Source: Chrysochromulina tobinii (lineage: Eukaryota > Haptophyta > Prymnesiales > Chrysochromulinaceae). From it: DNA of 25,367 bases. Under the pieces are notes generated by a model. That model made no database searches. It had not been told where the DNA came from and worked only from the letters and a program-made list of their open reading frames with translations. The stretch is taken from NCBI GenBank assembly GCA_001275005.1, contig JWZX01002758.1, positions 1 through 25,367 of the forward strand, read 5' to 3'. How positions within the stretch are numbered: position 1 is the first letter of the stretch; each line of letters opens with the position of its first letter. This document shows positions 4,356 through 25,152 of this stretch, in pieces. The position numbers and the translations under genes are program-made.

Positions 4356-7300
4356 ATGGGAGCAAACAAAAGCCGCTGCTACTGCGCCATTGCCGACGAC
4401 GTGCACGACCCCACGTCCTCTTCGATGTCCTCGTCGAAAGCGGCTGCCAATACCAAAACCTCTATGCAGCCAGTCAGAGTGTGCGCTTTCTGCCGTACGC
4501 CCTTGTTGTGGGACAGCAGCAGGGCCAAAGATGACGACGAACTGGACGTGCTAATTGCGTGCAGTAAAAGTTGCGAGGCACAGCTGATCAACCTCGTAGT
4601 TCCACGGGCCCGCTTCGCATATCAATTGAAGACGATCTTGCGCGACGCTGCGAGCCTCGAGGCGCTCCCAGAGACGTCCTCGTCGCAAGACTCGCAAAAC
4701 TGGACAACCACAGCGATGCTAAACACCCAGCGCGACGTGAATGTTAAGGGAACTTTTGTGACGCACTCGCTGTGGTTGAACACGACGTTACGCTACATCG
4801 GCGTCCCGTCCACTGAGGAACTGCGCGTGTCGGTGCCGCGGCTGCTCCAGAAGCGGCTTCCGAAGTTTGAATGGCTCGACAATCTTTGTGAGAGGCTCGA
4901 GGGGTGCCTGCCCAAGCCGCGCAATAGCTCCTACGACGTCACCGAGCTCCCGATTCGCGGGAGCCCGGAGTCGGGTGAGGGCCTCACCGCCAGACTGCAA
5001 AGACACCAACGCCGGCAGAGCTCCCCGAACCTGCTGGTACCGTCTCTAGCCCAGTGGGACGGTGTGCCAGCAGGATTGCCAGCAGGACGAGCTCTGCCAG
5101 CAGGACGAGCTCTGCAGCGCTCCTCGAGCTGCAGCAATCTGCCAGCAGGACGAGCTCTGCAGCGCTCCTCGAGCTGCAGCGACCTCTCGCCGCGCTTCGT
5201 GCTCGATGGAACGGGAGCGCTGGGCGTCTCGCCGGCCGTACCTCGCCCGCCATTTCTGCACACCCCGACCGAGACGCATGTTCATGCCGGGCTGAGCAGT
5301 CCCAGCGCCGCGCCTTTCGGTTGGTTTTCTCTCTCCGCCGACATGCTGCTCAGGACTCCCACGCCTCACGATGCCAGGACGCCGGACACGGGTCTCTTTC
5401 GCTCACCTTCCTCCTTCTTCTCCCCATTCTCGCCATTCTCGCCATTCAACCCTAAGAATGCGCAACGCGTGCGGGATTGTCGGAATGCGACTGTCGTCAT
5501 CGTTAGCGTGCTGCTCGGGGTCACGGTCTTGTACTTCTTCGTGCGGGTGATCTTCCTCGCACACCTCATCTACACCGCCAAAGAGTCAGACAAGGTGTGT
5601 GGTCCGCTCACGAACCGCTTTCGAACTAACGGCTGCACGCGGGTTTCTTTTCGTGGCCGTGCCTTATCTGGCCACGCCTTATCTGGCCTTCCTTGTACTG
5701 ATCCATCGATCCGGGAGACATTCGCGTCTTCGCAGCTCCTCTTTTACGACTTGCCGATGTGCAGCCGCTCCGCCGCCGCAGAATCCCCGGGCTTCGCCGT
5801 GCGCCTGGTCGATACGGCCGGCGCATGCGGCGAAGCCGAGCTGTATAACAATAGCTCGGCGGGCGCCTTGCAGCAGCTCGGGGAGATGCGCGAACTTGGG
5901 TTGATGCTCCGGCTGGATGACGGCTTCGAACTGGGCAAGGCGTACCTGCCGGTGTTCGTTCTCGGGCCTGCGCAGTACGCGCTGCTCACAGTATCGTTGC
6001 TCGACTCGAAGGGGAGATCGCTGTTCGAGGTGCCGGAGCTCACCGTGCAGCTTGGACCAGACGAGCGCTTCCCGTGGATCCAGGGCGAAGAGGCGTTCGA
6101 AGAGGAGAATGATGCGTACGAGAGCGTCTTGGAGGACATTATCGATGACTTGGGTGAGGACCTAATCGAGCATTTGACGAACCAGGTGAGCGATCTCATC
6201 GAGAGCGTCTCTGAAGATGCCCTTGATGAGATTGTGGACTTTGTGGACACAATCGACGCATATCTGTACAACGACACAGTCGACGCCAACGAGACTGCGG
6301 CGGCGCGCCTGGAGGAGCTCACCGAGAAGGCTGAGGAGGAGGCAGAGGAGCAGGCTGAGGAGCAGGCTGAGGAGGAGGAGGATGAAAGGGAGGCCGCGTT
6401 CGACGCGGGCCTCCTGAGCGACCTGGGTGTGCGCAAGACTTTCTTCTTGCTGGCCACTGCCTTCAACACATTCTTCAACATGGACATCTTCTACTTCCGG
6501 CCGAGTCGGATGGCTGCGGAACCGGTGGTGCCTGGAGCGTACACCGAAGCCGGCATCGAGAAGGAATACTCGCAGGTGCCGTACTACTACGGCGCACGCG
6601 CTGTCAAGAGTGGCCGACCCATCCTCGTCGCCACGTCTGAGCACTACGTTGCGCGAAAGGGTCCGCAGATGGTCGACTCTTGCACGATCCGTAATGGGCG
6701 ACGCGTGCTTCCCTGGGAATATGGGCCCAAGGCACTGAAGGCGGGGTGCAACAACGTGTACTCGCGCGTGCTGCCCGTCGACGGCGACCGGTACGAGTTG
6801 GTGCCGGCGCTCGCGCTCAAGACGCCCATCGACACGTGGCGCTGGCCACTGCAGCTGCGCATCCTCACGGGGCGAGTGTACACGAACCTCTCGCTGGTGC
6901 GCGATGTCTTGGGCGCGAACGGTACGACCGAAGGTGCGAACGCGACTGTACGAGGCGGCGAGCAAGTGCCCTTTTTGGTGCACTTTGACCCAGCAGGGTT
7001 CAAGCCGCAGCTGGCGTACTCGGACGACGGGGTGGCGCGTCAAAAAGACAAGGTGCCGAGGCTCTGGGTGGCTCTCGTGATTTTCGTCTTCCTCGTCATG
7101 GTGACGGTCATCTTCTGCGGCGAGTTCCATAACCTCCCCAGTGCGGCCGTGAGCGTGCTGCACAGGACCGTCATGGGGCTCGTCCGCGACGGCACCGGCA
7201 GGTGGCCGAGAGCTGCAGCCGCTGCTCTCGCGCTCTCGAAGCGCAAAGCCGGTGGGGGTTCGAGCCGTGACGAGACGCGGGATCCTGACTCCAACGACGT

Positions 7301-8408: not shown

Positions 8409-8579
8409 TCGCTCACGTCAGGGGCTAGCCCAGGCCGCCGGGGGCGAAGATCTCGTAGAGCCTCTCGAGCAGTGGCCCGAGCGCGTCCGCGGCCGCTGCC
8501 GCACCTGCACCGAGCGCGTCCGTGCCCGCGCCGAGCGTGTCCGCGATCGCGTTCGCGCCCGCGTCGGCGGCGTCGCTCG

Positions 8580-8728
8580 CTGTAATCAATCTCCTCGTAT
8601 CTGTGGGGTGAGCGCGCTGTGGTGAGCACGTGCATGCAAGGCAGGTCATCAGGTGCCTCCTTCGTGTAATCAATCTCCACGTACAGGATCTTGGCGTTCG
8701 ACTCAAAGATCTCGCGCCAATCTCGGAG
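8580..8728 (-). pseudogene. ABC1-kinase-like exon fragment interrupted by an introner-like intron
   Basis: On the minus strand, after a possible acceptor TAG (8731-8729), the exon 8685-8728 reads Leu-Arg-Asp-Trp-Arg-Glu-Ile-Phe... and resembles the segment before the EIDYTKEA motif of plant and algal ABC1/ADCK (UbiB-type) atypical kinases. The motif itself occurs twice: as VEIDYTKEA inside the intron 5' end and as EEIDYSE in the next exon. No other ABC1K exon is visible upstream, and downstream the frame degenerates into Arg-rich or Ala/Gly-rich sequence antisense to the J-protein gene. It is therefore best read as a displaced, non-functional fragment. The ABC1K match is from memory of the motif and needs a search. 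Confidence 0.45.
8601..8684 (-). other. Introner-like intron in ABC1K-like fragment (84 nt)
   Basis: The donor GTACGT is at 8684 and the acceptor CCCCACAG ends at 8601. The 3' half shares GCATGCACGTGCTCACCAC with the three introns in the FkbH-like gene. The first ~23 nt of the intron match the first ~23 nt of the next exon (8600 downwards) with few mismatches, so the splice sites sit in a direct repeat. Confidence 0.65.
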
Positions 8729-8801
8729 CTACTTTGTCTTTGATTCACAGTCCGGTCCTTTGGCGTGGGTATAATCACAAATCATTATCACGTACACGCA
8801 G

Positions 8802-9108
8802 CCCCTACCCCGCTACGTGCCGTCCCCAACTCGTCCTCGGCGTGGCCGTGCCCATCGCCCTGCTCGTGCGCTCGCCCGCGGCAGTCAGCCTGGCTCTCCG
8901 CGCGTTCACACTGCCGCTGCTCGTCGCGCGCTTCCTGCCCAACAGCTCGTCCTTCTTCGGCTACATTCTGCCCATCTACCGCGTGCAGTGGATGCTCGTC
9001 TCGAGGCTGTGGGTGCGAGCGATCCGCGGTCTCGAGCGAGGGGCGATCGCCGCACAGCTGATCCAGCGGCCCAGGCATCAAAAGCCAGGCGACGGCAGCT
9101 CGAGGTGA
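8802..9108 (+). CDS. Possible membrane-anchored 3' exon, perhaps of the J-protein gene
   Basis: The frame ending at TGA 9106-9108 is strongly hydrophobic over about nt 8840-9010 (two potential helices rich in Leu, Ala, Val and Phe). It then turns basic and helical (Trp-Val-Arg-Ala-Ile-Arg). This is unlike the Arg/Pro/Ser-rich nonsense frames around it. A candidate acceptor CGCAG ends at 8801. The upstream J-protein stops abruptly at 8408 after ...LRAFVSVV, and a donor near 8388-8399 would join the two. The exact junction and phase are not resolved, and the roughly 400-nt intron would contain the antisense ABC1K-like fragment. It could instead be a remnant of another gene. Confidence 0.3.
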
Positions 9109-9129
9109 GCGATGGTCGCCGTCGAGGAC

Positions 9130-9405
9130 GTGCTCGCGGCTTGAGGGAGATGGCTGACTGCCGAACTTGGGAACGAGGAGGCTTGAGGGAGAAGGCTGAC
9201 TGAAGTATCGGGGAGATTTTCTTTCTGGAAAAAGACGCGGTATGGGGAGATTTTCTTCGCTTTCTGGATTCACACACCGTATCTCCACCACCTGATTTTG
9301 AAGTAGTCATCGATTGACCTAAAGGGGTAGGGGGAGGTATTCTTTCTTGATTCACAGTGACTATCCCCACAAACCGATTTTGAACTCAGTGTATGCTGCC
9401 AATTT
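9130..9405 (+). repeat. Diverged short direct repeats
   Basis: GCTTGAGGGAGA followed by GGCTGACTG occurs twice (about 9141 and 9181), and GGGGAGATTTTCTT twice (about 9210 and 9243). A longer block starting GATTCACA and ending near GATTTTGAA is repeated about 85 bp later (around 9267-9305 and 9350-9385). The pattern suggests decayed local duplications. Confidence 0.5.
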
Positions 9406-10449
9406 TTTTGCTGCGGTTTGGTGACTAGAGGGGGAGGCGGTTGGCTCACATGACACATGTTGGCTCAGGGGGCAGAGGATCATCCGCTACCCCTTCCTAC
9501 CTACCCGAATGGATCCCCTCTTTTTTCTAAAAGATGGGGATCACGAGACCAGAGACTCTCGTCCAAGAGGCCCTCGCGCCCGAAAAAATGGCCGAAGCTC
9601 AGCACACCGCGATGGGCACCCGCACACGATCCCCATGCCCTGCCCTCGCCCTCCAAAACGCGCCTCAAACAGACGCTATCCATGAGGATCGCGCGCGCGC
9701 TTTCCAAAAAGAGAAAACATCATGCCAGGGCAAACCGATGAAGGCTCACGCACTCCCATGCCTGAAGCCTCTCATAATCTGCACCCTGCCGCGCAGCCCT
9801 TACGCACGACAACATGACGCGATGCGCTGCTGCTGCCACGCTCATGGACCACACTACTGCTTGCCGCTGCTGCCACACCACTGCTGCCACTCTGCCTCTA
9901 CCGCACTACCTTGCAAAACCACTGCGTGCTGCGTGTACGCTGATGACGCCACACTGCTGCTGCCTCGCTGCTGCTACCTTGCTATCCTCGCCTCCAACAC
10001 TCCAATCCACAGAGACTCGCCTAGAGTATAATCAGGCTCGCAACCTTCAACTTTCTGTCACCGCCACCACCGCACCTGTCGCCTCCATCACCACCCCTGT
10101 CGACCTCGCCGCAAACGCAATTGCCTCCACCGCTTTCACCTCGCCAACCAGCATACCTCCTACCCGACCTCATGCCATATCTTATATACTTATATACGCC
10201 ACCACCTTGTTAATCCCGCATGTATTCCCCGTATCTCGACTGTATCTCGGCGAATATCTCGCATAAATCTCGCATGATTAACTAATATCGCGCCCGACAT
10301 TCCTACCAAAAAAGTTTACAAGGCTGTATACCACAATAACGTCATTAAAACTCCAAGTAAAACAAAACCCTCCTGTCCATACCCACCACCCACACACAAG
10401 ACCCTCCCACGACTACGTCACCACCCTCCCCCACAGGGAGAGAGTGGGA

Positions 10450-10471
10450 CCACCCCCCTATAAAGGGGTGG
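10450..10471. repeat. Hairpin with TATAAA in its loop
   Basis: The arms CCACCCC (10450-10456) and GGGGTGG (10465-10471) are perfectly complementary and flank CCTATAAA. The TATA-like hexamer would point along the plus strand, yet no plus-strand gene begins nearby. It may be chance, a core promoter for an unseen non-coding RNA, or a processing hairpin. Confidence 0.35.
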
Positions 10472-10791
10472 CCACGACGTCCAACCCCCCCACACAGCAA
10501 AAAAAACGAAACCTCCCAACCCACCCCCCGTCGGGAAAGCGGGGTTCGAGGTGTGGGTTCTCTCTAAGGGGGGTCTAGTTAGTGTACACCACCGCAGACC
10601 GTACTGTACCGTAGTACATGCCCATCACGTTCGGGGATGTACGTCAGACCCTAGGGTGCGTGCGTGTATAGGTATGGTCCGGTCACCAAAAGCAAAACTT
10701 TCCTACCCGATAGACGTCTACCCCGTTTCAAAGGTTTAGACGATGAGTCCCCGTGCTGCGCTACTCGCTCCGCTCTCCGGCGGCCGCGGGC

Positions 10792-13700
10792 TCAAACATT
10801 GTCTGGGTGAACGACATTTTTCGCGTAGTACGAGTCCGGGTTGGCCTGCTGCATCATTACGTGCATTGAGTGGCGCATGCGCCGTCGCAGGCGCGCCTGG
10901 AGCGTCTCGACGTCGAGCAGGTCCACGTCATCAGCCTGAGCGCCACCTCCATCTGGCCCGCCAGCCGCCTCCACGTCATCGGCCTGAGCGCCACCTCCAT
11001 CTGGCCCGCCAGCCGCCTCTGCACTCTTCTCACCACCACCAGCGACACCTCCTCCTGTGCCTCCTTCACGGCCATCTGCTCCTCCACCAGCTCCCGAACC
11101 AGACCCCGCGCCAACGCCATTAGTGATCGCCTCCCTAATTGCCTCCCTAATTGTCAGTGATGAAGAACCAGACCCCGCGCCAACGCCCACCCCGCCCGAG
11201 GTGAGCGCCGAGGTGAGCGCCTGCTCCTTGCGCTCATACTGGCGCCATACCTCAACGAAAGCCTCCGGCAGCGTCTGCTCGCGCTCCGCCTGTGCCGCCA
11301 CCCATGCATGCAACTGCTCGGGCGCCGTCGCGAGCGCGAGCGCGAGCGCGTGGTACGTGTCAGGGTGGAGCGCCACCCCTTCTGACGAAACGAAGCCGAA
11401 ACGCCGGGGGGGTGCTCGGTACGGCGCCTCGTGCGCTCGGTACGGCGCCTCGTGCGCAGCCGCCGCGCCGCTGGAGGCGGCGAGTGGGGTGGGGGAGGGG
11501 GGCTCCGTAGACGTCGAGCCGGCCGAAAGCTGCAGCGGCTGCACCGCTGCCGGGAGGGGGGCTGCTCGTGCCAGTGGCGGCGGAGACGATGCCGCTCAGG
11601 CTGACCTGCGCCACGGCGGCTGCGGCCACGGGTACAAGGATGAGTCCTGCCTCGGGCCGAACGGCCGCGCGCTTGTACTGAGAGATCTGACCGAAGGTGA
11701 GATCGCGCTGCTTCGCTGGCGGCGGAGGCGGCGGAGGCGGCGGAGGAGGTGGAGGCGGCGGAGGCGGCGGAGGAGGCGGTGGTGAGGCCATGGACAGCGG
11801 GGGCGTCGAAGGCTTTGCTACCGGCTGCACCGCATCAGTGAGGGGCTCGGCGTCAGAAAGCTCTGGGCAAGCCGATGCCGCGGCTACCACCGCTCCCGCG
11901 CGGCTGGTGTCGTGTCCGAATGGGCATTCGAGTTTGGGGCAGTGCATGCCTGCCATCGTGTACCGGCAGAGCTCGCCACCGATGCGCCCACGCACCAGGA
12001 GTAACGTCTCGGAGCGCGCGGCGGCGGAAGCGAGCGCGCCGGCGCGGCTTCGGCCCACGTGCAATCCAAGACGACGGGCAAGGAGCGTACGCGTCGTCCC
12101 GGGCACCTGTGGGGAGATGGCGTCGTGGTGAGCACTTGCATGCTGAGGGGCGGAGCGTGCGCGTCGTCACGGGCACCTGTGCCATCGCCTCGGCCGTTGG
12201 CAGGTCGGAGAGTCGAAGTTGACGACCAGCGGCGATGGCGTTGGTGACGGCATGCTCTGCCGCCGCTGCGGCCGCAGTGGCTGCCGATCCAGCATCGAGG
12301 TCCTCAACTTCTCCATCACCTGCAGCGCCACCAGCAGCGCCAGCACCACCGCCAGCACCATCACCGCCAGCACCGCCGCCACCATCACCGCCAGCACGAC
12401 CACCACCATCACCGTCCGTCACGAGGTGGCCGTCCGCCGTCCCCGATCGGGATGCATCATCCGCCCCCGGTGCACGCGCCACGTCGCTCACTGCCGACCC
12501 GCCCGCCACGGCGCCCATGGGCTTCGCGAGCGCCGTCTCGAGCGCCACCTGCCTATTTTGGAGCGCCGTCTCGAGCGCCGCCATCCCCAGCTGCTCGGGA
12601 TCCGCCGCGCTGACGAAGCCCACCCCAGGCAAGGAGAAGAGGAAGGCGGCCGCTGGCTCGTTCCGCTCGGAGCGTCGCCAGTGGAAGGCGAGGGTGCGCG
12701 CACCTGTGGGGAGACGGCGCCGTGGTGAGCGCTTTCATGCTGAGGGGTGGAGCGTCGCCAGTGGAAGGCGAGGGAGCGCGCGCGAGATGACGAATCATCA
12801 GATCGCACCTCGGGCGGCCGCCACGCGCGCGAGATGACGGATCATCAGATGCTCGATGCCCAGATGGAGCGAGCGGCACGAGAGCATCCAGCAGCGTACC
12901 TGTGGGGAGATGGCGCCGTGGTGAGCACTTGCATGCTGAGGGTCGGAGCCTCCAGCAGCGCACGTGGAGCACTGTCGCCGCATCGAGCAGTGGCGCCGAC
13001 GAGGACAAGGACGCGCACGAGGCGGCGGCCGGCGGCGGCGGCGGTGCACAGCCCCCACAGCCACAGCCCCCATTGCCCCCACAGCCCCTACCGCCACCAG
13101 CGCTCTCGACAGCGCTCTCGCCAGCCCCCGCAGCTTTGTCACTGCTTCCCACAGCCCCCGCAGCTTTGTCACTGCTTCCCACAGCCCCCGCAGCTTTGTC
13201 ACTGCTTCCCACAGCCCCCGCAGCTTTGTCACTGCTTCCTTTCTCACTCTCCTCCTCGTCGTCCGCCGCGGACTCGCCCTGCGTCGACTGCCTGATGAGG
13301 CCAGCACGCTCTGCCTCTTGGGGCGCGAGGAGCGTCACCGGCGGAGACGTCGACTCCGCCATCACGGCCTCGTCCAGCACGATCAGCCCGACCAGCCCGT
13401 GGTGGCCGAAGCGGTCGGACGCCTCCACCGTGAGGCACGTGCTGCCAGCGGTGCATGCGAGCAGCCGCGGTGCACTCAGCGCCCATTTGCAGGTATTGTG
13501 TTGGTTGGTGCGCTCGCTCAGCTGTGCCGCGCGCAGCGCGCCCGAGCTCTCCGCACGACGATCGAGCGGACGAACGTCGACGCGGAGATTGAGCGACGCT
13601 GTGAACGCATCGAGCGAGGCGCTCGCGGAGGCGCCCGTCGCGGCGCTCGAGACGGCGCTCTGGCCGCGCACAAACTGTTTGCGCTCGTCGAGCTGACGAT

Positions 13701-14895
13701 AGAGTGCGGTGCGCTCCGCGTCCTCCGCTGTCAGCACGGCGGGCTCTGGTCCGAAGCGCGCGCGCTCTTCATCCAGCGCCCAACACGATTCGAGGAAGGG
13801 CTCAGCCATCTTTGGGTCGCGGGGCAGGAGGACGACCGAGACGCCGTGGAGCGCGCAGTGCGCGGCCACGTCCGCGCATTCGCTCGGCGAGTCGTCCACG
13901 AAGACAAAGGAGGCCAAGCCCAGGCACAGAGCCGACGCGAGCTCGAGCACGTGGCGCGACTTTGGCGCCCAATCGGCGCGGATCGCCACCAAATGCTCTT
14001 CGCGCAACGCCATCTCGTCACGCCGCTCGCGCAGCACGGCGCGCACGTCCGCCTCGTGATTGCGGCTGATGAGGCATAGGAGCGCCCCACGCTGCTGGAG
14101 CGCGACGAAGTGGCGCTGCACGCGCAGCCACTCGTCGCCCATCGACACGCCCGCCGCACCCAACTCCCCCACCGCACCTCCCCACAGCGTGTTGTCGCAG
14201 TCGAGGCAGTACACCTTCTTCCGAGGCGCGAGCGCGCGCGCAAGCTCGCGCACGATGACGCCCGCGAAGGCGCTGCACGCGGCGGGCGAGTACGGCGCGT
14301 GCGCCACGCGGTCGAGGAATGGCGAATGGTAGCGCACCGAGCCGAGGCTGCCGCGAAGGTTGGCCTCGTCGTACACGGTCACGCCGCGGATCGTCCAAAG
14401 CAGCGCGGCAAGGCTTCGCTGCGCCGCGCACGACGAGGCGTCGGCGTCCGAGGTTGGCGGTAGGAGCACGACCGTTGGGCCGCGCCGGCGCGAGCACGAG
14501 TCGCGCAGCGCATCGAGCAGCGCCGCGATAGCCGCCTCGGTGGTCGAGGCCTCGCCGCCATCGCCCGCACCGTCGCCTGCATCCAGCTGCGACCGGCTGA
14601 GCTGGAGCGCGCGCGCAAAGTCCTGTGCACGCAGCAGCAGCACGTTGACGCCCGAGCCATTGGCGTTCCATGCGCTCTGCTCGTCACGGATGCTCTCGAC
14701 AACCATGCCATACCCAACCCACTGCGGCGTGCAGAATTCGAGCCCGACGAGCGCACGCAGCCAGATGGAGAGCGGCCCCTGCAGTCCGAGCGAGTCAAAT
14801 GTGGCAGCGATGACCAGGGCAGCGCGCTTCGCGACGGCGGCGGGCGGCGGCACGGCGAAGCTCGTGGGCGCTGTCTCGACGTTGCCGTCGCCCAT
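10792..14895 (-). CDS. FkbH-like HAD (subfamily IIIC) protein fused to a CCCH-finger tail; four exons
   Basis: Exons: 12964-14895, 12809-12899, 12177-12703 and 10792-12106. Exon 1 (644 codons) holds an FkbH-type N-domain, then the HAD catalytic core: D232-x-D234-x-T236 followed by LWGG, Lys312, and DDSPSE at 334-339. A TNQHN segment near 460 is typical of FkbH C-terminal parts. Exons 2-3 restore the GNAT-like end (MLSCRSL..GIEHLM, then SERNEPAAAFL), which confirms the splicing. FkbH proteins make glyceryl-ACP from 1,3-bisphosphoglycerate in bacterial polyketide routes; the algal substrate is unknown. A Gly/Ala linker, a C-x8-C-x4-C-x3-H finger, a polyproline run and a helical C-terminus follow. 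Exon 4 changes frame near a G6 run (11556-11561); removing one base would give 1287 residues. Whether the two halves are truly one protein is unproven. Confidence 0.7.
10923..11018 (+). repeat. 48-bp tandem duplication in the FkbH-like gene
   Basis: Two adjacent 48-bp units, nearly identical, encode a 16-residue Gly/Ala/Asp-rich block twice on the minus strand. The length keeps the frame. Confidence 0.85.
11717..11785 (+). repeat. GGC/GGA triplet repeat encoding polyproline
   Basis: GGCGGAGGC-type trinucleotide units read on the minus strand as roughly 22 consecutive Pro codons in exon 4. Polyproline runs commonly bind SH3, WW or profilin-type domains. This stretch is also prone to length change. 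Confidence 0.85.
12107..12176 (-). other. Introner-like intron 3 of the FkbH-like gene (70 nt)
   Basis: The donor follows ...GCACAG at 12176 and the acceptor CCCCACAG ends at 12107. The first 25 nt of the intron repeat the first 25 nt of exon 4 with two mismatches. The remaining 45 nt are the shared core with CAGCATGCAAGTGCTCACC, in which CTCAC is a plausible branch point. Phase 0. Splicing joins two protein-like frames. Confidence 0.75.
12321..12413 (+). repeat. CACCGCCAG-type repeat encoding a Gly/Ala/Asp linker
   Basis: Imperfect 9-12 bp units of CACC, GCCAG and ATCACC encode a Gly-rich flexible linker of exon 3 between the FkbH-like part and the CCCH-finger part. Confidence 0.7.
12704..12808 (-). 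other. Introner-like intron 2 of the FkbH-like gene (105 nt)
   Basis: The donor GTGCG at 12808 follows CGAG, and the acceptor CCCCACAG ends at 12704. Within it lies a copy of upstream exon sequence (ATGATTCGTCATCTCGCGCG, against ATGATCCGTCATCTCGCGCG in exon 2). Next comes a ~26-nt copy of the start of exon 3 (CCTCGCCTTCCACTGGCGAC), and then the shared core. Removal, in phase 1, gives ...ARGARTLAFHW..., matching the expected FkbH-like C-terminus. Confidence 0.8.
12900..12963 (-). other. Introner-like intron 1 of the FkbH-like gene (64 nt)
   Basis: The donor GTGCGC is at 12963 and the acceptor CCCCACAG ends at 12900. The first 18 nt of the intron repeat the first 18 nt of exon 2 with two mismatches, and the rest is the shared core. 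Reading through gives an Arg/Pro-rich nonsense tail, whereas splicing (phase 0) gives the SCRSL...GIEHLM segment expected in FkbH-like proteins. Confidence 0.82.
13122..13240 (+). repeat. 30-bp tandem repeat, four copies
   Basis: Four adjacent, nearly identical 30-bp units encode the decapeptide GSSDKAAGAV four times on the minus strand in exon 1 of the FkbH-like gene. The frame is kept. The near identity points to recent expansion. Confidence 0.9.
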
Positions 14896-18899: not shown

Positions 18900-21596
18900 T
18901 CAACCCTGAGAAGGCGCTGTGAGTCGCCGTCGCTTTGGGATGCTGCTGCATGTGGGCCGCTCCTCCTCCGCCACTTCCTCCTCGTCGTCCCCCTCACTGC
19001 TGTCGCTCTCGCCTTGATCCCCCTCCGCGTCGCTCTGCTCGACGTCTTGAACTTGATCATCGAGCTCTCTTTCGAGTGAACGGGCGCCCAGACGACGCTC
19101 AATACGACGCTCAATGCGACGCTCGATTGCCTGCAGCTGGCCTTTAAATCTCGACTCCACCTTTCGAACTTGCTTTCGAAGCTCGGCCTTGAACTTGTGC
19201 TCGAGCTGGTCCATCTCTGCCTTGTGATGCGCCATGCTCACGAAGTTCTCATCGTGTGCATCTCCATCCTCCTCGCCCGCCTCTGCCGCCAGCGGCTGCG
19301 GCACAGCGACCCTCGCCTCCGCCGCCGCTGCCGCCGCTCGCTCAGCCCCGATGCACCTCGCATAGCACAAGGCCGCCTCTTCCGGCGTCGCGAAGGTGCC
19401 GAGGTAGCGATTCTTGCCATTCTCCCACACCTCCACCCTGTACTTGCCATGATCCTTGCGCACGCCCTTGAAGCCCGTGCTACTGAGCGACGACAGCACA
19501 AGCTCGAGCCCCTCGGCCACCGCGGCCGCCTTTGCCTCGTCTGCCGTGAGCGGTTGCGGCCCTGCGGCCATCTCCTCCTCCACTGCCTCCTGCTCCTGCG
19601 CCTCCTCCACCACCTCCTCCTGCGCATCGTCTCTCACTGCGACCCTTGCCTTCGCCGCCTCTGCCGCCGCTCGATCCGCCCCGATATGCCTGGCGTAGCA
19701 CAAGGCCGCCTCCTCCGGCGTCGCGAAGGTGCCAAGGTGGTGCTTCTTGCCATTCTCTTTGTGCTTCGCCTGGTACTTGGCTTTATTCTTGGTCACGCCT
19801 TTGAAGCTCGTCTCATTGGTCGACGACGGCACGAGCTCGAGCCCCTCAGCCGCCGCGGCCGCCCTGGCCTCGTCCGCCGTGAGCGGCTGTGGCCCTTCGT
19901 CCCTCGCCTCCGCCACCTCTGCCGCCGCTCGCTCCGCCCCGATGTGCCTCGCGTAGCACAAGGCCGCCTCCTCCGGGGTCGCAAAGGTGCCGAGGCGGCG
20001 AGACTTGCCATCCTCCCACACCTCCACCTTGTACTTGTCATGACTCTTGGTCACGCATTTGAAGCCCGTGCTATTGAGCGACGACAGCACAAGCTCAAGC
20101 CCCTCGGCCGCCGTGGCTGCCCTGGCCTCGTCCGCCGTGAGCGGCTGCGGTCCTTCGCCTCTCGCCTCCGCGGTAGGTAACACTCGGCGCGTTACGTGTA
20201 CTACGTCCATCCCGTCGGGATTGCCGCGGCCGCTACCTCCTTGCCCGCTGCCTCCGCGCCAGCGCACAGAGGAGTCGTCCGCGCGCCCTACGGCCCGCCC
20301 TGCACGGCCCGCTCGCCCCCCGCCCATGGCTGTGCCTCTGGCCGCCGCGAGAGCAAGGATGTTGGCCGCCGCGGCCGCTGCAGCCGACATGGGGCCCTTG
20401 GCGGCGCAGGCGGCGGCGGCAGTGGAGGCGGCGGCGGCAGGGGAGGCGGCGCCGCCGCCGCTGCCCGTGGCGCCGCCGCCTCTCGTGGCGCCCAAGGGTC
20501 TCACCATGGCTGCCGGTGAGGGCTCTTCCGTCGCCTCCGCCCCCGCTCGCTCCGCCCCAACATGCCTCGCGTAGCACAAGGCCGCCTCCTCCGGCGTCGC
20601 GAAGGTGCCGAGGTAGCGCGTCCTGCCATTCTTCTTGGTCTCCGTCGTGTACCTTGATCCAGACCTTTTGCTGCGCACGCCCTTGAAGCCCGACTCATTG
20701 CTCGACGACGGCACAAGCTCGAGCCCCTCGGCCGCCGCGGCCGCCCTGGCCTCGTCCGCCGTGAGCGGCGGCTGCCCTGCGGCTGCCCGCGACTCCAAAT
20801 CGGCTGCATTGTCTTCGTCGGAAGCCGCCTGGCTAGGGGCCTCCACCTCACGCCGCGCCTCCTCCTCGCGATGCGCTCGGGGGTTGCTGCTACCGGCTGA
20901 CCCGCCGACAGCGTGGGCGCCGGTGCGCCGCGACGAGTTCCGATCAAAGTAAACCTCGTCCTGGTACCTCTTCTTGGGCTGCCTCACACGGACTGAGGCG
21001 TAGGCCTCCGCTTCAGCAGCGTCCTTCTCTGGCGGCGCGCCATCAGCCACCGCCGGGAGCGACCTTGTCTCCCCAACCTCGCCCAGCACTTCGAAGCGCT
21101 CGGATGAAAAGTCGATCCAAAGGACGTCGCCGTCGTTGAAACGCACCCGGTGTGATGTTCCATCGATCAGCTTCCACACCTCGACCACCCGGCCCGCAAA
21201 CCAGCCCTTGTGCTTGCGCAGGTAGACATTTACAAGCGTGTCCACAGCGAGGGCAGAGGAGCCGGAGGCAGCGAGGTGTGGGGAGGGGACAGGGCCTGCC
21301 ACGCTCGAGGCGGCGATCTGCGCAGGCGGCGAGAAGCTCGTACGTTGTCGCGAGCGGCTGCCCTCGGGGGGTAACTCCTGGTCCTCATCGCTGTCTGACC
21401 CCGCTACGACCAAGTGCTCGTCACCTGAAATTGGCCTGAGAGCAGTGGCATCCATCTGGAGTGCTGGCGGAAGTGCCGCCACTGGCGCTGGCGCTGGCGC
21501 TGGTGCTTTTGCAGTGCTCTTGCGTACAAACCCCGGTGGGACAGCCGGGATCATCAAGCTTTGCCAACCATGCTCCATTCCTACACTCCCTTCCAT
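18900..21596 (-). CDS. Nuclear protein with Tudor-like domain and four AP2 domains
   Basis: A single-exon frame of 898 residues from ATG 21596; the frame is open upstream only to a GTG at 21626. A Tudor-like fold (about 117-172: VNVYLRKHKGWFAGRVVEVW, then VRFNDGDVLWIDF) suggests methylated-histone or chromatin binding. Four AP2 DNA-binding domains follow at about 301-351, 508-556, 596-643 and 706-753. Each has a GFKGV start and an LGTFATPEEAALCYARHIG end, and each is preceded by a repeated QPLTADEARAAAAAEGLEL block. The middle linker is Ala/Gly rich. The C-terminus has a basic coiled coil (about 786-850), an acidic tract (851-880) and a nuclear signal PKRRRL. The AP2s lack the plant ERF context and look like tandem copies of one module. 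It is probably a sequence-specific regulator; its targets are unknown. Confidence 0.85.
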   Translation of the reverse strand: MEGSVGMEHGWQSLMIPAVPPGFVRKSTAKAPAPAPAPVAALPPALQMDATALRPISGDEHLVVAGSDSDEDQELPPEGSRSRQRTSFSPPAQIAASSVAGPVPSPHLAASGSSALAVDTLVNVYLRKHKGWFAGRVVEVWKLIDGTSHRVRFNDGDVLWIDFSSERFEVLGEVGETRSLPAVADGAPPEKDAAEAEAYASVRVRQPKKRYQDEVYFDRNSSRRTGAHAVGGSAGSSNPRAHREEEARREVEAPSQAASDEDNAADLESRAAAGQPPLTADEARAAAAAEGLELVPSSSNESGFKGVRSKRSGSRYTTETKKNGRTRYLGTFATPEEAALCYARHVGAERAGAEATEEPSPAAMVRPLGATRGGGATGSGGGAASPAAAASTAAAACAAKGPMSAAAAAAANILALAAARGTAMGGGRAGRAGRAVGRADDSSVRWRGGSGQGGSGRGNPDGMDVVHVTRRVLPTAEARGEGPQPLTADEARAATAAEGLELVLSSLNSTGFKCVTKSHDKYKVEVWEDGKSRRLGTFATPEEAALCYARHIGAERAAAEVAEARDEGPQPLTADEARAAAAAEGLELVPSSTNETSFKGVTKNKAKYQAKHKENGKKHHLGTFATPEEAALCYARHIGADRAAAEAAKARVAVRDDAQEEVVEEAQEQEAVEEEMAAGPQPLTADEAKAAAVAEGLELVLSSLSSTGFKGVRKDHGKYRVEVWENGKNRYLGTFATPEEAALCYARCIGAERAAAAAAEARVAVPQPLAAEAGEEDGDAHDENFVSMAHHKAEMDQLEHKFKAELRKQVRKVESRFKGQLQAIERRIERRIERRLGARSLERELDDQVQDVEQSDAEGDQGESDSSEGDDEEEVAEEERPTCSSIPKRRRLTAPSQG

Positions 21597-22084
21597 AAAA
21601 GGACAGAGGGGAGGAAAAAATTTCACACCACTCGAAAATAGAAACAGCCAAACTAAGAGAGTGCGGCGAGACCCATGTATGAACTCGGGAGGGAGGGCGC
21701 CCGCCGAAAAGGGCGGTGAACCCCCAGATGGGCGTCCGAGCCAATTTTTTCACTTATCTCTTCAAATAAAGCTTCAATTCCAAGAAAGGAAGAACATTTC
21801 GTCAGCTGAACAAATCGTCAACGGAAGACGGGCTCTTGTGTGCACTGCGTGCAGAACCGCGCGCACGTTCGCGCATCATTGATCAGACGGGATATGCTTC
21901 GGCTCTTCATGCACACCTACATGCGAAAACCAAGGTGCGTACACACGGCCAGTATTGGCCACCGAATACCGCAGTACCCATGTGCTTGCCCCGGCCCTGC
22001 CACACGTGAGGCTCCTATGTTTGTCGACGGCGCTACGGTCGTGGCGACGCCTCCCACGGCATGTGAGCTCATGTGCATGCATGG
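21597..22084. promoter_or_regulatory. Intergenic region upstream of the AP2 gene
   Basis: Holds the T-rich leader of the minus-strand AP2 gene just above 21596 and the 3' end of the TLC gene. No TATA box, RNA gene or coding frame is recognised. Confidence 0.4.
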
Positions 22085-23189: not shown

Positions 23190-25152
23190 TCATCGGCCGT
23201 CTGTGTCGTAATCTGCGCCGCCTCCCTTATTTGCCGAGGGATCGTCGGCCGCCACCGCGTCCCTCATCGCCCACCTGCGGGGGTTGAGGCTCACGGCCAT
23301 CGGTGCGCGCAGCGCCTCGAGCTGGCGCGCCTCGTCCTCCGCCATCCTGTCGAGCAAGAGCAGCAGCTTGCCGCCAAGGCCCCAGCGCTCACACACGCCG
23401 AGCGCTGCCTCGAACGAGGGCGGCTCGTCAGACTTGAGCGTCCCGTGCCGTCGCAGCGCATCGAGCTGCATGCACACGCGGTTGAGCTGATCGTTGAGCT
23501 GGCGCGCTGTAAGGGTCGCCGGCTTCGGCGCCGCGCGAGCTCGCGTCGTCGTCGCCGCCGCCGCCTCCGCCGCCTCTGCCAAGACCGCCAAGGGCGTCGT
23601 CCCGGGCGTCGTCCCATCGGACGCGATCTCGGATGCGATCTCGGACGCGATAGCAGCGGGAGCCATGGCAGCCATGGCAGCCGTCGCAGCCGTCGCAGGC
23701 GCCGTCGCGGGCGCACCCAGCTCCTCATGCAATTGCCCCACGATCCTGAGACCCACTCTCCATTCCTCCGACTCGAGGCATGCGTCGAGCACCGTGGCCG
23801 CACATAGACCGTCGATTTGAGATCGCATCTCGGGATCGTCGAGCAGCCCCTGCCAGATCGCAATCACCTGATGGCAATCAGTGGCAATCAGTGGCAATCA
23901 GTGGCAATCAGTGGCAATCAGTGGCAATCAGATGGCAATCAGATGGCAATCAGATGGCAATCAGTGGCAGCCCCTGCCAGATCGCAATCACCTCGCGCAT
24001 CTCGCGCGCCGCGCCGCACGCCGCCAACGCCGCCGTGTGACACTCGAGCGACGGCGCCAGGCCGACGGATCGCATGCGCGTGAGCAGGCTGAGAGCCTCC
24101 TCCCACCGCGGAGGCACGCAGCTCGCGAGCGCGGCGAGCGCGGTGCCGTACGAGCGCACGTTCGCGCGCTTCCCCAGCCCGTCGAGCAGCTCGAGCGCCG
24201 CCGCGGGCTCCTGCGCGCGGGCGCATGCCTTGATGGCGGCGTTGACACACGCGACGTCGGGCGTGACGCCATACCGACTACTCATGCCATGGGTGAGGGC
24301 GAGGGCGGGCTTCCACGCAGCCGCCTCGGCGCACGCATTGACGATGTTCGAGAGCACCACGATGTTGGGCGCGACGCCCTCCGCCTCCATATCCGCCAAA
24401 AGCCGCAGGGCCGCTTCCCAATGGCCGAGGGTCGCGTACGCTTGCGCCGTGGCGCCAAAGGTGACCGCATTCGGTCGTAGGCCGTCGCGGCGCATCTGCG
24501 CGAGGAGCGCGGGCGAGCGATCGGCATACGAGGGCCGGCGCGCACACGCCGAGATCGCGCTCGTGTACGAGATCGTCGTCGGCCGGATCCGCTCGTCCTC
24601 TCCCGTACGCATCTTCTCAAAGAGCCGGAGGGCTACCTCGGGCTGGTCGGCGCGGTCGCACGCGGAGAGCGCGCCGTTGTAGCAGCGCGCATTGCTCGGG
24701 ATGCCACGCGCCTCCATGTCGTCCAGCAGCGCGATCGCCTCCGCCCAGCGGCCCGCCGCCGCGCACGCGCCGATCGCCGCGCCGAACACGAACTCATTCG
24801 GCTCCTTGATCGTGCGCAGCAGCGCGAGCGCCTTGGCCCACTGCCGGCACTTGCCGTGGGCGGTGATCGCAGTGGTGTATGAAAACGAATCCCAAGCACC
24901 GCGCTCGCTCAGCTCCTTGAGCAGCGAGAATGTCCGGTCGTACTGGCCCGCACGTGCGCATGCTGCAGCTACGCTATTAACTGCCTTCGCACTCGGCGGT
25001 CCGATCGCCCGGAGCTGGTCGAGCAGGAAGAGCGCGTCACGAATGTTGTTCATCTGCCCGCATCGGACGATCTGCCGCTCGAGCGCCGCCGGCGAAGGGC
25101 CAGGCTGCACGAGGGACAATGCAGCCCAGAAAACAATGGGCAGCCCAGACAT
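23190..25152 (-). CDS. Pentatricopeptide-repeat (PPR) protein, probably plastid-targeted; two exons
   Basis: PPR proteins bind organelle RNA one base per 35-residue repeat. Exon 1 (23992-25152) and exon 2 (23190-23867) join in phase 0 to give 612 residues. About nine PPR units fill most of exon 1 (for example SYTTAITAHGKCRQWAKALA and VTFGATAQAYATLGHWEAAL). Exon 2 continues the last unit (VIAIWQGLLDDPEM), then has an Ala/Thr-rich low-complexity stretch and a helical C-terminus without an SMR or DYW domain. I chose ATG 25152 because MSGLPIVFWAALSLVQPG looks like a signal peptide, as expected for a complex plastid. ATG 25323 is in frame and would add 57 polar residues. The intron body is a minisatellite; unspliced, the protein ends shortly after exon 1. 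Confidence 0.85.
23868..23991 (-). other. Minisatellite-bodied intron of the PPR gene (124 nt)
   Basis: The donor GTGATT follows GCGAG at 23991, and the acceptor CATCAG ends at 23868. The first 24 nt of the intron are identical to the first 24 nt of exon 2. The rest is almost entirely the 10/11-bp repeat. Splicing restores one continuous PPR-like frame with no change in phase. Confidence 0.75.
23869..23970 (+). repeat. 10/11-bp minisatellite (GTGGCAATCA / GATGGCAATCA)
   Basis: One ATGGCAATCA, five GTGGCAATCA and three GATGGCAATCA units in a row, ending in GTGGCAG. The unit resembles the adjacent exon sequence GATCGCAATCA, so it could have grown from the exon copy. Confidence 0.92.

Follow-up and report, generated by a model that had tools for sequence, protein, structure and literature searches.

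The window analysed here is a 25,367-nucleotide stretch of DNA from Chrysochromulina tobinii, a member of a haptophyte genus. Its minus strand carries an FkbH-like gene with three predicted introns, a fourth predicted intron, and a PPR gene with an intron of a different class (Table 1). The preliminary description had proposed that introns 1–4 share a core, and we found this core in all four. It reads GCATGCAAGTGCTCACCACGGCG – the 23-mer used as the reference for mismatch counts in the window – and includes CTCAC, a plausible branch point. Three of the four copies have CTCCCCACAG at their 3′ end; the copy at 8601 ends in CACCCCACAG, with CTTGCATGCACG standing ahead of GTGCTCACC.

Each of the four introns also contains a near-copy of downstream exon sequence (18, 33, 25 and ~26 nt in introns 1 to 4, respectively). 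This near-copy lies at the very start of introns 1, 3 and 4 and further inside intron 2, where each of three alternative 5′ splice sites (12783–12785) runs into a stop. From this comparison, the core appears to be only the movable half of each intron – the other half being duplicated exon.

Table 1. Introns, cores and duplicated segments in the window.
Feature	Positions	Strand	Remarks
FkbH-like gene with introns 1–3	11360–14895	-	Single 1,098-codon frame when spliced; frame and homology
Intron 1, 64 nt	12900–12963	-	First duplication copy plus element; predicted intron of FkbH-like gene
Intron 1 core	12914–12936	-	0 mismatches to 23-mer
Intron 1 duplication, copy 1, 18 nt	12946–12963	-	Supplies GT 5′ splice site; sequence comparison
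Intron 1 duplication, copy 2 (exon)	12882–12899	-	16/18 positions equal
Intron 2, 105 nt	12704–12808	-	5′ splice site at 12808 leaves frame open
Intron 2 core	12718–12740	-	2 mismatches
Intron 2 duplication, copy 1, 33 nt	12749–12781	-	32/33 equal
Intron 2 duplication, copy 2 (exon)	12669–12701	-	Sequence comparison
Intron 3, 70 nt	12107–12176	-	Open frame once removed
Intron 3 core	12121–12143	-	1 mismatch
Intron 3 duplication, copy 1, 25 nt	12152–12176	-	23/25 equal
Intron 3 duplication, copy 2 (exon)	12082–12106	-	Sequence comparison
Intron 4, 84 nt	8601–8684	-	Predicted; diverged copy, part of longer form (CTGATGACCTGCCTT) precedes core
Intron 4 core	8615–8637	-	2 mismatches
Intron 4 duplication, copy 1, ~26 nt	8659–8684	-	20/26 equal
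Intron 4 duplication, copy 2 (exon)	8575–8600	-	Sequence comparison
PPR gene intron, ten-letter repeats CTGATTGCCA	23868–23991	-	Second class, long-duplication anatomy; predicted splicing joins ..REMREV^IAIWQGLL..
PPR intron duplication, copy 1, 25 nt shown	23967–23991	-	First 24 found exactly in copy 2
PPR intron duplication, copy 2 (exon)	23844–23867	-	Sequence comparison

Reading frames and protein homology at the introns

The elements had also been described as removed by splicing. Reading frame and homology bear this out for the three copies at 12.1–13.0 kb, while intron 4 has weaker gene support, with an in-frame stop ~16 codons upstream. The unspliced FkbH-like frame stops at codon 780; removing introns 1–3 opens the full frame and regains the FkbH domain's second half (189.1 versus 158.7 bits). 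We aligned the spliced protein with 13 of the 120 matches listed and found it gapless at introns 1 and 2 against 10 of these relatives. The same 10 of 13 lack intron 1, as protein records that are possibly spliced models; the other three keep it unspliced in their reading frames. Removal of intron 1 joins the conserved FkbH residues ..VLH^VRCWMLSCRSLHLGIE...

Removing the first repeat together with the element likewise regained the conserved proteins VPS4 and WDR83. The WDR83 insert is missing from 9 of the 10 relatives aligned (of 120 matches listed), again protein records that may be spliced models. One of the relatives without the insert, P0122, is 96–97% identical and seems to begin before the likely start, as would be expected of a frame left unspliced. 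Among 47 introns informative for reading frame, the spliced phase was better in 34 and the retained phase in 13; some of the contrary cases may reflect the small codon model, which was built on only seven window genes. Reading frame and protein homology thus suggest that the first duplication copy and the element together behave as an intron. The best organism-named matches of WDR83 and the FkbH-like protein are from Prymnesium, and those of a dymeclin are from green plants such as Closterium (34–41% identity).

An element family across the genome

Introners are a leading explanation for mass intron gain. The proposal that copies of one element recur throughout this genome proved correct: the 23-mer core has 2,333 genomic places at ≤3 mismatches, with introns in unrelated genes, and its reversed control has none. 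A 19-mer taken from the preliminary description has 99 exact matches genome-wide (reversed pattern, 0), a 31-mer across the core and 3′ tail has 130 at ≤3 mismatches (control, 0), and a longer form, GTACGTTGATTGCCACTGATGACCTGCCTT followed by the core, has 175 (control, 0). The core spans ~24 nt and, in introns, usually precedes a pyrimidine tail that ends in CCCCACAG. Related sequence thus occupies many introns at non-homologous positions, as it does in the introners of Micromonas, Aureococcus, Symbiodinium and TARA algae covered in excerpts of PMC9860276. The existence of the element family is near certain, and its copies, of which the majority apparently serve as introns, mark it as an apparently large introner family that has been active recently.

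An assembly artefact or plain minisatellite could account for tandem runs, which hold 81 of the 211 copies first collected and 113 of the 315 copies in all. Against this scarcely credible account, the WDR83 insert is also present in a separate record (P0121, JGI), window intron 1 recurs in P0241 and P0242, and the insertion sites are unrelated genes.

Some core copies sit in exons, apparently unspliced, mostly in frame and in either orientation. Those without an intron-like tail have a length divisible by three in 14 of 17 cases, and at six loci (L060, L062, L071, L120, L124 and L087) such copies stop exactly at CGGCG. At L039 the copy is antisense to the best coding frame. Because splicing brings no advantage in exons, these copies suggest that the core is to some degree mobile in itself.

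Host duplications and routes of spread

The long duplication around the element is the real surprise beyond the shared core. Of 202 non-tandem copies, 161 are flanked by a host repeat, compared with 1 of 150 mismatched control pairs. At loci fetched by the core or 19-mer alone (L079–L138), 39 of 50 non-tandem copies have one. An excerpted study (PMC11782384) reports that each of the 213 introns it examined has direct repeats of ≥70% similarity close to its borders, which makes weak repeats beside introns poor evidence; the mismatched-pair control, above which the repeats here clearly stand, addresses this point. Duplication length varies from 12 to 50 nt (median 24 nt among the 106 repeats with ≥95% identity). 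The repeats are fully identical in 62 of the 161 copies, and 39 of these are at least 20 nt long, which argues that the insertions are recent.

The 161 copies comprise 101 of type B, which stop right at the 3′ splice site; 13 of type A, in which the 5′ end is fixed, the 3′ end varies and the duplications called span 12–24 nt; 9 interior copies; and 38 without a called splice pair. Types A and B together (114 of 161) have one splice site at the element's end, and the duplication can apparently supply either splice site. In type B, repeat length falls as element length rises (r = -0.45). Tandem genomic duplication in which AGGT provides both splice sites does not describe these copies, although the 9 interior cases would fit it. 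Three of 46 eligible copies are, under strict scoring, daughters that carry a piece of the parental duplication (reversed control, 0); six further rows, which proved to be the longer form's own head, were left out. Read by eye, a type A copy in the pair L146 to L139 also appears to carry part of its parent's second duplication.

These duplications bear on two routes proposed for other introners. Excerpts of PMC9860276 attribute most introner families outside ascomycete fungi to DNA transposons, with target duplications, inverted repeats or both, and give duplications of 3–9 bp for some families. A MITE-type transposon, bounded by terminal inverted repeats and moved by a transposase, would suit exonic copies in both orientations, but the duplications here are 12–50 nt and variable rather than a constant 3–9 bp, and element ends vary among copies; we consider it very unlikely, and duplication length and ends led us to reject an inverted-repeat transposon. 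Direct reading of the ends of the core and of the longer form found no inverted repeats between them. The RNA route suggested for introner-like elements in fungi, by which excised introns are reverse-spliced, would explain why type B copies finish exactly at the 3′ splice site. It should leave no target duplication, however, and was rejected on the duplications found in the 161 copies; antisense copies such as that at L039 also speak against it, and we regard this route as more improbable still than a transposon.

We searched 299 kb (the loci and the window) for repeats with filler between them, after removing 290 low-complexity repeats. The 280 repeats found hold the core (125), another filler of ≥12 nt (108), a ten-mer repeat (23) or a short filler (24), a mix biased by the choice of most loci for holding the core; a Markov control gave none. 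A further 68 adjacent duplications have no filler. The best reading is that the introns spread as patches captured in the repair of staggered breaks and were then filtered by splicing, a proposal that we find evenly poised. Paired offset nicks would leave long 3′ overhangs whose filling-in would duplicate 10–50 bp, and between the duplicated copies would be joined a short patch, with the DNA or RNA of an existing intron as its template. Natural selection would retain such an event only where the insert either stays in frame or is spliced out cleanly. The core and tail would bring a branch point and 3′ splice site within ~40 nt and, with 20–35 nt of duplicated exon, make an intron of workable size (median 77 nt); this packing would explain why the core is over-represented. 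The break-repair step itself is inferred from the duplications and fillers. Vaughn and Bennetzen reportedly described patch-mediated repair in rice in 2014.

In mouse and human cells, small tandem duplications arise from filled-in 3′ overhangs (excerpts of PMC8355091). These CST-Pol alpha duplications are small, at paired nicks and with overhangs of tens of bp, as proposed here; the excerpted passages draw no link to introns. As here, direct repeats flank the new intron in staggered-break intron gain as excerpted in PMC3443670, where the repeats are short; the repeats in C. tobinii are long and surround one recurrent insert. A purely random patch would yield the same core in thousands of copies only under very strong selection. 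Nearby DNA templates would predict local copying, which reading by eye had hinted at, as had same-locus pairs sharing upstream sequence at L007, L013, L020, L040, L042, L046 and L054. A permutation test on the core and tail did not support local copying (0.465 on the same contig versus 0.473 on other contigs, with 1,293 of 2,000 permutations equalling or exceeding the observed value).

The main rival to captured patches is target-primed reverse transcription, in which a LINE-like enzyme would use a nick to copy in a tiny RNA (SINE-like or an excised intron), yielding variable duplications and 5′-truncated copies. Duplication length is indeed variable, the core resembles the 3′ half of the longer form, several tail-less copies stop exactly at CGGCG, type B copies end at the 3′ splice site like an excised intron, and the genome has 26 reverse-transcriptase domain matches. 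Several exonic and type B copies agree with a fixed 3′ end and 5′ truncation, whereas type A is the opposite; neither poly(A) nor a constant tail was seen on the copies, and other fillers show similar duplications. We judge this rival rather unlikely overall, and type A and antisense exonic copies weaken excised-intron RNA as the sole template. Selection might also act without any mobility, in a runaway by which frequent short duplications gain random fillers and only splice-cassette fillers survive. The 68 filler-free and 108 other-filler repeats at the same loci, and the trade-off between repeat and element lengths, suit such a runaway, but in-frame exonic copies keep the core where splicing is not needed – in a search that used the core and left other exonic fillers uncounted – and we think it improbable.

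In excerpts of PMC9860276, the introners of Micromonas and the other algae likewise carry one splice site and take the other from the duplication; C. tobinii differs in its long variable duplications, both directions within one family, absence of inverted repeats and in-frame exonic copies. Family 5 of a Chrysochromulina sp. in the same excerpts (TARA_PON_109_MAG_00232; Fig. 2C) has no inverted repeats, as here, and, like the longer form, brings a 5′ splice site and borrows the 3′ one. Its reported duplication is 4 bp, versus 12–24 nt across our 13 called type A copies; family 5 could be the same kind of element measured differently. Amoebophrya introners (excerpts of PMC7789003) also have direct repeats at intron borders, and their spread is strain-specific; unlike here, the repeats are 3–5 nt, with inverted repeats of 8–20 nt and non-canonical splice sites.

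In C. tobinii, long and often identical duplications mark each event, can reveal what was copied and reveal both splice directions, and the exonic copies are built-in controls. This legible footprint and these controls make the break-repair model directly testable in one organism.

Ten-letter-repeat introns

Introns built of ten-letter repeats form a larger class, with 11,805 motif matches, and long duplications occur there too. A duplication was found in 57 of 85 such introns, against a control of 18% that is inflated because ten-letter repeats align with themselves; the case for this class thus rests on individual perfect cases and the 23 ten-mer repeats counted above. We tentatively propose, with somewhat less confidence than for captured patches in the core family, that one process serves both classes. 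Repair of offset nicks would duplicate 10–50 bp and capture either intron scrap or an iterated ten-letter branch-point motif, and the spliceosome would silence the scar, so that introns would spread without a transposase or dedicated reverse transcriptase. If this is true, most recent introns of the genome are repair scars. Among the open-licence literature matches listed, judged by title and start of abstract, we recognised no account of long variable-duplication introners or of haptophyte ten-letter-repeat introns. The window itself holds one intron of this class, that of the PPR gene, which is the fifth intron there with a long duplication.

Genome-wide copies of the core

The preliminary description held that four minus-strand introns of the window share a common core, and re-reading of the sequence bears this out. 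In the genome assembly (53.15 Mb in 2,253 contigs), we found 99 exact copies of the 19-mer proposed there and none of the reversed pattern. Allowing up to three mismatches, a 31-mer over the core and tail matches 130 places genome-wide and the 23-nt core matches 2,333 (1,126 forward, 1,207 reverse), with no match to either reversed control. A longer form, consisting of TTGATTGCCACTGATGACCTGCCTT followed by the core, is present at 175 places across the genome (control, 0).

Exon duplication and predicted splicing of core-bearing introns

We compared anatomy in growing sets of fetched loci (38, then 78, and finally all 158 plus the window). Presence of the core or longer form was the criterion for every locus; for L009–L038 the intron tail was required too. 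Throughout, the core is a mere part of each intron, and the typical intron opens with a copy of the exon found directly 3′ of it. Among 315 distinct core copies in the 158 loci and window, 202 lie outside tandem runs. In 161 of the 202, the sequences upstream and downstream of the element, that is, the inserted core-bearing part, share a direct repeat (score ≥12). Matching the upstream flank of one copy to the downstream flank of another gave a repeat in 1 of 150 cases. At L079–L138, fetched via the core or 19-mer alone, 39 of 50 non-tandem copies carry the repeat, and another 34 copies are in tandem runs. Repeats of at least 95% identity measure 12–50 nt (median 24, n = 106), and 62 of the 161 are identical. 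Entire introns, duplication plus element, stand head to tail at L010, L023, L037, L061, L117 and L132, in exact or near-exact copies.

The 161 copies differ in the source of their splice sites. In type B (101 copies, over-represented because L009–L038 were chosen for the intron tail too), the first duplicated copy provides the 5′ dinucleotide (GT, in rare cases GC), whereas the branch region and 3′ AG come from the element; GTGCG is the commonest 5′ site (24), followed by GTACG (20), and the median intron length is 77 nt. In type A (13 copies), the AG lies at the end of the second duplicated copy. The element is the longer form in 9 of the 13, and in these nine it begins with the 5′ site itself, which reads GTACG or nearly so. 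A splice site falls inside the duplication in nine copies, and 38 have no called splice pair – some of these resemble introns with a decayed duplication. Seventeen of the 38 were classed as lacking an intron-like tail, three of which (L039-3077, L138 and L064-2472) are intron-like on inspection. Lengths are divisible by three in 14 of the 17. At several tail-less copies the coding sequence runs on through the insert; the L039 gene has such copies in both orientations.

PMC9860276 describes introners, including splice-site co-option from target duplications, and a Chrysochromulina introner family. Within the part of the open-licence literature surveyed, we found no description of an introner with 12–50-nt duplications or of one family operating in both directions.

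Codon phase and protein alignments provide strong indirect evidence for splicing, which we predict for the core-bearing introns. Lengths of 77 intron-like copies, modulo three, are 0, 1 and 2 in 30, 22 and 25 cases, and the element is sense relative to the coding strand in 63. Forty-seven of these introns are informative about codon phase, which is better after removal in 34 and better if retained in 13. In the window's FkbH-like gene, which ends at 11360, removing introns 1–3 takes the frame from a stop at codon 780 to 1,098 codons. The match to FkbH then gains a second stretch and scores 189.1 bits, compared with 158.7 before removal. The spliced protein is gap-free at introns 1 and 2 against 10 of 13 aligned relatives, including Prymnesium parvum; the other three protein records, P0241 (98% identical), P0242 (93%) and P0243 (84%), contain intron 1 unspliced. 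Its presence in P0243, where the first copy appears by eye to be longer, means that intron 1 would predate that split. The P0243 reading frame holds the core near the same site in a different frame (..CMQVLTTAPF..), so the family seems to be present in a second species. A ~14-residue tandem duplication adjoins that core.

VPS4 minus its insert aligns unbroken to VPS4B (PDB 2zam) across the junction. When the spliced reading of WDR83 is aligned to 10 relatives, 9 show no gap where the insert was removed, though some relatives may be spliced gene models, so these alignments show clean excision and not absence from the relatives' DNA. The tenth, P0121 (a JGI entry for an almost identical protein), has the insert as 23 in-frame residues; record P0122, 96–97% identical, is without it.

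Origin of copies and candidate mechanisms

Of 46 eligible copies, the longer form excluded, 3 qualify under strict criteria as daughters that carry part of a parent's duplication (reversed control, 0): L025 has 17 nt from the L015 duplication, L059 has 14 nt from the L050 duplication, and within L020 the copy at 2717 has 9 nt from the duplication around the copy at 1494. Looser cases also exist, and on the opposite side L139 seems by eye to include a portion of L146's second duplicated copy. The moving unit thus looks like an intron piece with at least one ragged end rather than one sharply bounded on both sides. Copies on one contig are no more alike over core and tail than copies on different contigs, and we therefore do not claim local copying.

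We favor a mechanism in which fill-in repair of a staggered break would duplicate the host stretch, a patch would be captured during that repair, and new inserts would be filtered by splicing or reading frame. PMC8355091 documents such duplications from 3′ overhangs in mammalian cells. The main rival, target-primed reverse transcription, accounts for the variable duplications and for several exonic copies that stop exactly at CGGCG. Reverse-transcriptase domains occur at 26 places in the genome, within long open reading frames of at most 3,358 codons.

Duplications around other fillers

A scan of 299 kb (fetched loci plus window), excluding 290 low-complexity repeats, identified 280 long direct repeats with filler and 68 adjacent duplications without filler; a Markov control yielded no such repeats. 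The fillers comprise 125 core, 23 ten-mer, 24 short and 108 other sequences, the last class being mixed: on inspection, several of its members turn out to be core or ten-mer sequence that has diverged. Long repeats around such varied fillers suggest that the long-duplication process is general in this genome, and that the core is one of its passengers. A further class of introns, present in the window and genome-wide, is built of ten-letter tandem units, CTGATTGCCA, CTGATGACCT and kin, with a branch-point-like box in each; triples of the motif number 11,805 genome-wide versus 1 in the control, overlapping matches within one array being counted separately.

Introns and duplications in the window
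Feature	Position	Strand	Detail
Intron 1, FkbH-like gene	12900-12963	-	
Intron 2, FkbH-like gene	12704-12808	-	5′ splice site used adjoins the older duplication
Older duplication	12777-12803, 12824-12850		27 nt, 20-nt filler; nested at intron 2 5′ end
Intron 3, FkbH-like gene	12107-12176	-	
Intron 4	8601-8684	-	
PPR-gene intron	23868-23991	-	ten-letter repeats between two identical 24-nt exon copies
Filler-free tandem duplication	5093-5182		unit 45 nt
Filler-free tandem duplication	10922-11017		unit 48 nt
Filler-free tandem duplication	11414-11457		unit 21 nt
Filler-free tandem duplication	13092-13269		unit 30 nt
AP2-like protein	18900-21626	-	

The units of the four filler-free window duplications are all multiples of three. 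The protein encoded at 18900-21626 shows several AP2-like repeats by eye, with one AP2 domain above the Pfam cut-off, and its DNA contains 3–4 copies of 112–300-nt units.
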